Part shown: piece by piece, positions 19,875-23,562 of the stretch
Layout: each line of letters starts with the position of its first letter
How positions within the stretch are numbered: the stretch's first letter is position 1
Source of the DNA: Vasconcelosia minhoensis LEGE 07310
Lineage (GTDB): Bacteria > Cyanobacteriota > Cyanobacteriia > Phormidesmidales > Phormidesmidaceae
Assembly (NCBI RefSeq): GCF_015207255.1
Contig: NZ_JADEXG010000012.1
Coordinates: forward strand, 1-64,000
DNA length: 64,000 nucleotides
Direction: 5' to 3'
Notes under the pieces: generated by a model
Databases searched by the model: none
The model's input: the letters and a program-made list of their open reading frames with translations, nothing else
What the model was told of the DNA's origin: nothing
Translations under genes and position numbers: made by a program

Positions 19875-19956
19875 GCGGATGTGGTGGAATTGGTAGACAC
19901 GCACGCTTGAGGGGCGTGTGGCTCACGCCTTGCGAGTTCGAGTCTCGCCATCCGCA
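19875..19956 (+). tRNA. tRNA-Leu (anticodon GAG)
   Basis: The acceptor stem GCGGATG pairs with CATCCGC, with discriminator A at 19956. The D-arm region TGGTGGAATTGGTAGACAC is class-II leucine type, the anticodon stem CACGC/GCGTG holds loop TTGAGGG (anticodon GAG), a short variable arm follows, and the T-loop is TTCGAGTC. Total 82 nt. CCA is not encoded. A hairpin just downstream (19961-19985) may end the transcript. Confidence 0.95.
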
Positions 19957-20745: not shown

Positions 20746-21684
20746 CTAGGGTGAAGGCGGCGGTTCGGGCTGGTAGGAGCCCGGCATGTATTCCATCGGG
20801 GTGTACATTTTCTCGACCCAAATTTTGGCTCGCAGCGGGCCGTACTGCTGCCGCAGCGCATTTTCAACCCGCTCACCAATGACGCTGGCCATGCTGGCAA
20901 ATTCGGGGTGGAGGGCAATGTGCAGTTCGACCCAGACTTGGCGACCGACCATGCCCCGAGACAGAATCCGGGTACAGCGGGTGACGCCTTCTACCTGACC
21001 GGCCACCTGGGCGATCGCTTCAGGCGCGATCGCGGTCGGCCGCAGCAGCATCGGCAGCTGGGATAGCAGCATTCGCCAAAAGCTTCTGATTGAAAAACCG
21101 ACTAGCGCGATCGCCACCAGCGGATCAACCCAGCCGTAGCCGCGCCAGATCGCCACCAACCCTAGCAGCATCGAGGCCGTCAGCCAGGCATCTTGCAGCA
21201 AATGCTGGGAGTTAAGCCGTAGGGCCAGGCTGCCTAGGGTACGGTTCTGATAGGCAGACAGCAGCGCCAGCCCCAGCGTAATGACTACCATCGCCGTTAC
21301 CAGTTGAATCAGCGTTATCGTGATCTCGACTGGAAAGGGAACAGCGGACTGCTGCCAAAGCCCCTGCAGCTGGCCGATCGCCAGCAGCAGCAATGTCAAG
21401 TTTGAAAAGCCTAGAATCGCTGCTAGCAGAAGCGCTCCGGCGGCTTCACCACGACCATGACCCCAAATTTCGCGGCCCAGTGTGCGCTGGGGTGAGGCAA
21501 CCGCAATCAGGCTCAGGCTGGTGCTAAAAACATCGATTAGCGTGTGCAATGCTTCGGCTAGCAGGCTCAGGGAATGGCTAACCCAGCCCGCTGTGACCTC
21601 AATTGCTAAGACTAGCAGCGTTGCCCATAGGATTGCTAGCAGCAGGCGATAGCTGATGCGCCGCTGGTGTCCGCCCTCGTTCAT
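20746..21684 (-). CDS. Cation diffusion facilitator (metal efflux)
   Basis: A 312-residue inner-membrane transporter of the CDF family with six predicted helices and a cytoplasmic C-terminal ferredoxin-like domain. The metal site histidine/aspartate pairs are visible as HTLID in helix 2 (EALHTLIDVFS) and HLLQD in helix 5. CDF proteins export Zn2+, Co2+, Fe2+ or Mn2+ in exchange for protons. The C-terminus shows WVELHIALHPEFAS, typical of the dimer domain. It converges on the chorismate lyase gene. Metal specificity cannot be told. A second CDF lies at 59085. Confidence 0.92.
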   Translation of the reverse strand: MNEGGHQRRISYRLLLAILWATLLVLAIEVTAGWVSHSLSLLAEALHTLIDVFSTSLSLIAVASPQRTLGREIWGHGRGEAAGALLLAAILGFSNLTLLLLAIGQLQGLWQQSAVPFPVEITITLIQLVTAMVVITLGLALLSAYQNRTLGSLALRLNSQHLLQDAWLTASMLLGLVAIWRGYGWVDPLVAIALVGFSIRSFWRMLLSQLPMLLRPTAIAPEAIAQVAGQVEGVTRCTRILSRGMVGRQVWVELHIALHPEFASMASVIGERVENALRQQYGPLRAKIWVEKMYTPMEYMPGSYQPEPPPSP

Positions 21685-21723
21685 AGCCCACAGGCTAGCA
21701 CGGAACTTAGAAAACCCGTGTTT

Positions 21724-21796
21724 AAAAACAGAAAGGGCACCGACGACTGGCCGTGTTTCGTCTCGGTGCCCTGACTGGTTCGCTCCTCACACAGTC
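21724..21796 (-). ncRNA. Probable small RNA with own promoter and terminator (Yfr2-like?)
   Basis: On the minus strand a short hairpin GACTG...CAGTC (21796-21773) holds a loop containing GTGTGAGGAGCGAAC. Directly after it comes a terminator: AGGGCACCGA (21772-21763) pairs with TCGGTGCCCT (21743-21734) around a loop with CGAAACACGG, followed by TTTCTGTTTTT. Upstream lie ATGACA and TATAGT separated by 17 bp. Together they outline a transcript of about 72 nt. The first loop is complementary to the published Yfr1 core CTCCTCACAC, and the two-hairpin design recalls the Yfr2 family; that assignment is from memory. It cannot be a CDS leader because it ends before the transporter gene. Confidence 0.65.
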
Positions 21797-21799
21797 ACT

Positions 21800-21828
21800 A
21801 CTATACGAGGTATTGAAGAATTTGTCAT
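21800..21828 (-). promoter_or_regulatory. Promoter of the small RNA
   Basis: The minus strand reads ATGACA (21828-21823), 17 bp, then TATAGT (21805-21800). This is a near-consensus sigma70-type promoter whose predicted start near 21794 matches the beginning of the first hairpin of the RNA. Confidence 0.6.
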
Positions 21829-22037
21829 CCAAAACCCAGACTTTCAACGCTTTTTTTGACAAATTTTGACAAAAAATCCTCGCTCCGAAGCGGAAAGCTA
21901 GCGCTAGGTAAGCCTACCATGGGTAGCTGGCTCGGGGCCGAGTTCTGGCTGAAAAAGTCAAATTCGTACCCCATAGCCGGCGTCTAAATCCGGCAATTTA
22001 CGGAGAACGCTCAGAAGAGCAGGCGGGCGCCTCTGCG

Positions 22038-22062
22038 GCTGCGCTGCTTGCAGCAGCGCAGC
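22038..22062. repeat. 11-bp perfect hairpin in the 21.8-22.8 kb intergenic region
   Basis: GCTGCGCTGCT (22038-22048), loop TGC, AGCAGCGCAGC (22052-22062). It is not followed by a T-run on either side. The surrounding region 21860-22690 holds no gene I can support and is not RNase P RNA or tmRNA by eye; it may contain further regulatory RNA. Confidence 0.55.
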
Positions 22063-22691
22063 TAAATATGCAGAAATTCTAAGTCTGACCTGGAGCCGAT
22101 TGCGCTTTTGTTTATTTAGGCAGAGCTATCAAGTTTGGGGTGAGTATAGAGTCGCAAAAGGTTTGGCTAAGGCAACCTTTCTGAGATATTTTTTGGGTAG
22201 GACGGACTGAAGTCGCTATCTTTTCTTCTTAAGTAGATCGGGGCCTGGACCAATCCGTGAAAAAATGCAAAATCCTGCTTGCTGGCCCAGGTCTACCGAC
22301 CGGGCAGCTATTTCAAACCTTTCAGGCGCCACCTGGTGAGGAAAAATAGGCTTTATTCGACGGGATTCGAGGCAGCGCTCATGGCCTTTTTGCGCTACTC
22401 TACAAGGGAGTCTGAGCCGGTTAACCCGTCGCCATTTCTATGAACATCGGAAAAGCATCAAAGCACAAAAAATAGCGCCCCAAAAACCGGAAAACTGTAC
22501 TAATCTACTTAGAACAATTTAGCTGTATCTCTGACTCACAGGGTTGCCCCCCTCTGCAGCAGCTGTGCCCCCAGAATTTAATATAAATCGACCGTCTGTT
22601 ATCGCCTGAACTGCTTTATTTCATTGGCTTAGCTGTCTTTTAGACAGACCAGCTACATGGGCAGGGCTTGAGGTTTAGTTTGATCAGGTTG

Positions 22692-22705
22692 GTAAATATT
22701 TTTAC
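22692..22705 (+). promoter_or_regulatory. Perfect NtcA-type site GTA-N8-TAC
   Basis: GTA (22692-22694), eight bases, TAC (22703-22705) is the consensus for the nitrogen regulator NtcA. TACCCT (TAN3T) at 22721-22726 may serve as a -10 element, though the gap of 15 bp is shorter than the usual 22. It lies about 90 bp before a gene whose product has an NtcA-like DNA-binding end, so autoregulation or NtcA control is plausible. Confidence 0.5.
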
Positions 22706-22794
22706 ATCCCGAGCCCTGTATACCCTACTTCGCCCTACTTCGAATCATTCGAAGTACTTAATTGAATTGACGTGATCCTCGGTTTGGATATTAG

Positions 22795-23562
22795 ATGTCT
22801 CTCTATACCCTTGAACCTATCCCCGGCGTTTCCCCCATGTCTTCTCCTTCTCAACCGGATAGCGCTCGGCCTTTCTTGTCTTGGCAGCGGATTTCTGACT
22901 GGGCAAACGAACACTACCGCTGTCGGGACTTTAGCAAAGACGAGAAGATCCCCACTCGGGCTGGGTTGCTCTACTTGGTGCAGCGTGGCGCAGTACGCCT
23001 GGTGGGCAACGCCCAGGTCAGCGCCACCGTGAGGCAGAAGGGCTCAGCCGCCCGTATACCGCTGGTCGCAGCGGAGGAGGCGTTTCTCGGCTTTGTCGGA
23101 GCGGGACAGCCGTTTGAGATTGTAGCCCAGCCGCCTTTCACGCTCCAGAGCTTTTCCCACGTCGATCAGACCACCATCATCTGGCTCTACTGGAATGATT
23201 TAGATACCTGGCCCCATTTCCGTCGTGAGGTGCTGGATGCGTTTCGGCGGCAGCATCAGCGGAAGCTGCTTTGGCTTAGCACCCTGGGCCAGCGGCGGAC
23301 AATCGACCGGCTGCTGGGATTCTTAACCCTGCTGATCGATGAATATGGCGAATCTTGCGAGGCGGGTGACTATCTGCCGTTTCCCCTGACCCACGCTCAG
23401 ATTGGTAGCGCCATTGGCTCTACCCGAGTCACCGTGACCCGCCTAATGGGTAAGCTGCGCCAGCGGGGGCTGATTCAAAACCATGGTGAAAATCTAATCT
23501 GCATCCCGCCTGGCGCAAGCTGGTCTCAGCAGGCCCATACAAATTACGAATCGCTACCTTAG
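22795..23562 (+). CDS. Crp/Fnr-family transcription regulator, NtcA-like C-terminus
   Basis: A 255-residue regulator. Residues about 40-160 form a cyclic-nucleotide-like jelly roll with weak conservation ([29 protein letters not shown]). The C-terminal winged helix carries [20 protein letters not shown] then [11 protein letters not shown], very close to NtcA ([22 protein letters not shown]). The effector-domain residues of NtcA are not clearly kept, so I treat it as a paralogue rather than ntcA itself. Start at ATG 22795; ATG 22837 is an alternative. A perfect NtcA box lies upstream. Confidence 0.87.
   Translation: [255 protein letters not shown]

Follow-up and report, generated by a model that had tools for sequence, protein, structure and literature searches.

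A Yfr2-family small RNA gene in the cyanobacterium Vasconcelosia minhoensis LEGE 07310 and its predicted pairing with the single Yfr1 of the same genome

The minus strand of the window (the whole 64,000-nucleotide stretch of Vasconcelosia minhoensis LEGE 07310 DNA that was analysed) carries, at 21828-21724, a free-standing small RNA (sRNA) gene of the Yfr2 family with a predicted RNA of ~70 nt (Table 1). The locus has both a promoter and a terminator, and both are conserved. In the encoded RNA, the GAAACACGGCCA loop caps a 13-bp stem with the T run next to it (fold z -2.5, 2 of 200 shuffles being as good), and CAG pairs with the 3′ CUG in the window fold and in relatives. The sole Rfam match above cut-off in the window is a tRNA gene at 19875-19956 (+). 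A plus-strand R1 match at 21718-21780 (24.7 bits) was set aside as the reverse of the yfr2 hairpin.

Table 1. Features of the yfr2 locus and its neighbours, in window coordinates.
Feature	Position	Strand	Basis
-35 box ATGACA	21823..21828	-	promoter scan; TGACA here in 118/169 non-redundant relatives vs 0-8 in control windows
-10 box TATAGT	21800..21805	-	17-bp spacer; 7 nt before GTGTGAGG
Inferred transcription start	21792..21793, about +/-2 nt	-	promoter geometry of 169 relatives
Anti-Yfr1 motif GTGTGAGGAG, single-stranded 5′ tail	21783..21792	-	motif search, alignment, co-folding
CGAAC: unpaired C, then GAAC predicted to extend the duplex to Yfr1 GUUC	21778..21782	-	co-folding
CAG, 5′ side of basal helix, pairs with 21729-21731	21775..21777	-	alignment; 97.6% of cells paired
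Main stem, 5′ arm AGGGCACCGAGAC	21760..21772	-	8/13 pairs changed on both sides
Apical loop GAAACACGGCCA, 12 nt, nearly invariant	21748..21759	-	alignment of relatives
Main stem, 3′ arm GTC-G(bulge)-TCGGTGCCCT	21734..21747	-	alignment, covariation
CTG (basal helix) and T run, rho-independent terminator end	21724..21731	-	sequence, alignment of relatives
Divergent Crp-type regulator gene, conserved neighbour	22795..23562	+	upstream in 71/102 subtype loci with enough flank
Downstream cation diffusion facilitator (CDF) gene	20746..21684	-	Pfam Cation_efflux, TIGR01297

The yfr2 promoter matches at 10 of 12 positions and is the sole promoter-like site in 400 bp (0.2 expected). Because the distance from the -10 box to GTGTGAGG is mostly 6 or 7 nt (range 6-11) in the 169 non-redundant relatives, the start is placed at the first G of GTGTGAGG or one base earlier, and the predicted ~70-nt primary transcript would begin at GUGUGAGG. 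A sequence-only reading of this DNA had described a promoter, two hairpins and a terminator on the minus strand, with a Yfr1-complementary motif in the loop of the first hairpin. The promoter, main stem-loop and T run stand, whereas the first hairpin (GACTG/CAGTC) was rejected as a conserved element: its 5′ arm (GACTG, 21796-21792) spans about -3 to +2 relative to the inferred start, five pairs of this type can form at no more than 7 of 169 loci, one of them the window's, and the predicted fold from 21795 or later lacks it. Given the lack of conservation of this hairpin and the position of its 5′ arm at the start site, the anti-Yfr1 motif is assigned instead to a single-stranded 5′ tail. Further upstream, a direct repeat of TTGTCAAAATTTGTCAAAA with a 10-bp period (21854-21872, minus strand, ~60-80 bp before the inferred start) was discarded as a regulator site, being absent from relatives. 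In some members of the family (e.g. L030, L035, L045), but not in the window, a recurrent ATAAGAAAA(A/T)CT is located upstream of the -35 box, ~30 bp away.

The Yfr2 RNAs of Synechocystis are abundant and short, 65-80 nt in length. A long stem with a 12-nt GAAACA(C/A)GG loop has been described as a Yfr2 trait, and in the Synechocystis copies the loop is equally long and the 5′ end is unpaired (PMC2662882). With the family (Yfr2-5 of Prochlorococcus, Yfr2a-c of Synechocystis), the window's RNA shares the single-stranded 5′ GUGUGAGGAG, the long stem with this 12-nt loop, the one-base bulge three pairs below the loop (position -4; an unpaired 3′-side G that the Rfam consensus also shows), its own promoter and a Yfr1 in the same genome. 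It belongs to a subtype that differs from the rest of the family in its apical helix (GAC/GUC instead of GUC/GAC), in CGAACC after the motif, in the basal CAG:CUG helix, and in usually being single-copy in a genome and often having fixed neighbours. Yfr1 (RF01116) is the partner RNA carrying the complementary motif and not a homologue of Yfr2.

The covariance search proposed in the sequence-only reading was run against all of Rfam. Cyano-1 (RF01701) was the best match at the locus, full length and with the same structure, at 37.7 bits (E 6.9e-5 for 600 bp), slightly under the gathering score of 41 bits. No Rfam family competed with it, RF01116 gave no match at the locus in this search, and the high score to another RNA family that had been named beforehand as the case against the assignment was not seen. 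Because the score is under the cut-off, the locus is placed in Yfr2 by its anatomy and not as a formal RF01701 hit. RF01701 matches only here in the 5.26-Mb genome, and in 56 of 59 genomes (own plus relatives), with the cut-off reached in just 22. Within the window's family, most of the subtype's copies fall in the range 37-41 bits, and the missed cut-off therefore seems to reflect a limitation of the Rfam model; the threshold misses most subtype copies there. A viral Yfr2 was also considered and dropped: the sole match in viral_contigs falls within a coding gene and is not matched by any Rfam family.

Stem conservation was evaluated in an alignment of 45 orthologues (42 distinct) with 16 common pairs. 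Among the distinct orthologues, 9 of the 16 stem pairs have changes on both sides; double-changed cells number 62, compared with 16.8 in shuffles, and 99.3% of cells are paired, compared with 92.4%. The 5′ tail and the 12-nt loop are the most conserved parts of the alignment. The subtype model built on it gives 98.7 bits in the window, a score that is high by construction because the window is among the sequences that built the model.

Finding yfr1 elsewhere in the genome had been proposed as a check, and a single gene was found by RF01116 (52.7 bits, cut-off 38) at G000:C107:106909-106975, between guaB-like and trxA-like ORFs. The guaB-trxA interval is the usual Yfr1 site. ACTCCTCACAC is present once in the genome, inside this Yfr1 gene; RF01116 matches in 58 of 59 genomes (own plus relatives), and GTTCACTCCTCACAC is found in 30 of the 31 Yfr1 sites read. 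Pairing was modelled by co-folding in place of RNAduplex, whose energies are uninformative because the long self-stems dominate. The predicted duplex places Yfr2 GUGUGAGGAG-C-GAAC on Yfr1 GUUC-A-CUCCUCACAC, with 14 pairs and one C·A mismatch, and leaves the own stems of both RNAs intact; the complementarity first proposed, over 10 bases, is thus borne out and extended. The interaction energy is -21.5 kcal/mol, compared with -5.2 +/- 2.8 when Yfr2 is shuffled, -9.6 +/- 2.8 when Yfr1 is shuffled and -10.7 +/- 2.2 when the 5′ tail is shuffled (0 of 400 as good in each case), and an in silico GAGG to CUCC change weakens it to -5.5. The model indicates that this Yfr2 is very probably able to capture the Yfr1 of the same genome. 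Together with the Cyano-1 match and the presence of Yfr1, the predicted duplex supports the Yfr2-type design originally proposed.

GAAC is kept in 16 of the 19 readable among 20 low-scoring subtype hits, where the adjacent CAG is often changed; its invariance across the 169 sequences follows from the pattern used to select them, and only these 20 hits sample it fairly. The C that faces A persists even though a U is predicted to pair better (-25.5 vs -21.5), and therefore selection does not act on pairing strength alone. No compensatory Yfr1-Yfr2 changes were found among the relatives compared, where they could not show because the core of Yfr1 hardly varies; one relative has an altered motif, GTGTGGGGAG in L062 (genome G048), together with an unchanged Yfr1 in L101. 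The exact GTGTGAGGAG occurs once in the window and is one of 4 in the genome, one of them being the antisense strand of yfr1. The two other sites, L270:1501-1510 (-) and L271:1501-1510 (+), are located immediately before or within ORFs; the L270 site, immediately before one, is a possible Yfr1 target.

Yfr1-Yfr2 pairing in Prochlorococcus MED4 has been documented by pull-down, reporter and competition data, and Yfr2 relieves Yfr1 repression in the reporter system; this sponge effect has been observed for Prochlorococcus RNAs only, partly in an E. coli reporter (PMC6778093). The Yfr2 of Nostoc PCC 7120 binds Yfr1 in EMSA, an experiment that addresses binding only (PMC6974561). We consider it highly likely that the window's gene is the genome's single Yfr2 and works as a sponge or antagonist of Yfr1. 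A sigma70-type promoter would drive a free-standing sRNA of ~70 nt, whose tail, 5′-GUGUGAGGAG-C-GAAC-3′, would pair in the cell with Yfr1 5′-GUUC-A-CUCCUCACAC-3′ and draw Yfr1 off its mRNA targets; the 3′ stem-loop would serve as terminator, and its nearly invariant 12-nt loop probably binds another RNA or a protein.

That loop could also be the main business of the RNA, with Yfr2 acting directly on mRNAs or binding a protein and Yfr1 titration being secondary. Its conservation and the 302 mRNAs that co-purify with Yfr2 in MED4 (PMC6778093) speak for this view, whereas the 5′ tail is equally conserved, the predicted Yfr1 pairing extends over 15 positions, and in vitro competition for Yfr1 favours Yfr2 over an mRNA target (PMC6778093). 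We regard the loop as the primary function as rather unlikely; a loop role and Yfr1 titration are not mutually exclusive.

The subtype model matches 173 of 195 genomes of the window's class, part of them only with weak scores of about 60 bits or less, which stem from the other subtype. The class genomes without a match, among those listed, all fall into a single small-genome family, probably the marine picocyanobacteria. The subtype is present in most cyanobacterial lineages outside that family, usually once per genome. RF01701 itself matches in 65 of 146 sampled genomes of the phylum, all 65 in the window's class; the 20 listed genomes without it (61 more are beyond that list) all come from other classes. 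A scan of 84,980 species found the subtype pattern in at least 117 stretches, and among the matches listed nearly all have cyanobacterial titles, one being a MAG labelled Gracilibacteria. Tandem RF01701 clusters occur in one family (f32), e.g. in genome G112 at contig C48:46228-47001, and the f32 genomes with such clusters also carry the window's subtype elsewhere.

yfr2 genes have been reported to lie at unconserved loci (PMC6778093, introduction), to which the window's subtype looks like an exception. Neighbours were counted at 102 loci with at least 2 kb upstream and 102 with 2 kb downstream, a set in which a few genomes appear twice, Nostoc-like genomes are over-represented and only the window's subtype is covered, as other-subtype loci were too short to serve as control. 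A divergent Crp-type gene lies 0.4-1.8 kb away in 71 of 102 loci; a DALR-like gene, named so by reading of its sequence, lies on the same strand just upstream in 65; one or both are present in 79; and a convergent HAD hydrolase follows downstream in 53. Judged by NCBIfam cut-offs, the Crp-type neighbour qualifies as neither NtcA nor PtrA. The window has no DALR-like gene and instead, as in a minority of relatives, has a CDF gene downstream. The ~0.9 kb at 21860-22790, where many relatives have the DALR-like gene, holds no ORF of 60 aa and looks like a lost gene.

The CDF gene is a possible read-through target, and the locus might accordingly be viewed as an actuaton, with promoter and sRNA mainly starting a longer read-through transcript that sets cation-efflux gene expression and the sRNA as a by-product. 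Its ATG at 21684, on the same strand, is 39 nt from the T run, the promoter scan found no second promoter between yfr2 and the CDF gene, a CDF gene is also downstream in a minority of relatives, and Synechocystis Yfr2b and Yfr2c are likewise linked to downstream genes (PMC2662882, PMC5386190). We nevertheless find this unlikely: at the 53 loci with the convergent HAD hydrolase, where no leader role is therefore possible, the sequence and stem of the RNA are unchanged. A mere terminator or chance hairpin next to a chance 10-base match to Yfr1 is extremely improbable, since the terminator-like hairpin at the end and a match that by itself is present 4 times in the genome come with orthologues that keep a covarying stem, a fixed motif and a fixed promoter through most of the class.

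The Yfr1-Yfr2 partnership is already known, and the gene is a good fresh example of low surprise. The modestly new aspects are the breadth of the subtype across the class, its frequent fixed neighbourhood (Crp-type, DALR-like, HAD hydrolase) and the copies missed by Rfam. Rather tentatively, the subtype may represent a vertically inherited, syntenic 'orthologue' branch of Yfr2, carried by most lineages other than the probable marine picocyanobacteria; its Yfr1-binding tail would span 15 positions and keep one C·A mismatch, and it might be linked in regulation to the divergent Crp-type neighbour. If so, the role of this branch would differ from that of the multicopy Yfr2 genes so far studied, which lie at unconserved sites. 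For the biology of the group, the gene shows that a putative Yfr1 and Yfr2 sponge pair is encoded in a Leptolyngbya-like cyanobacterial lineage, by a subtype often missed by standard annotation. What remains of interest is the synteny of the subtype, the longer duplex and the retained mismatch; the near-invariant C·A and the fixed neighbourhood offer handles on why the Yfr1-Yfr2 pair is kept.
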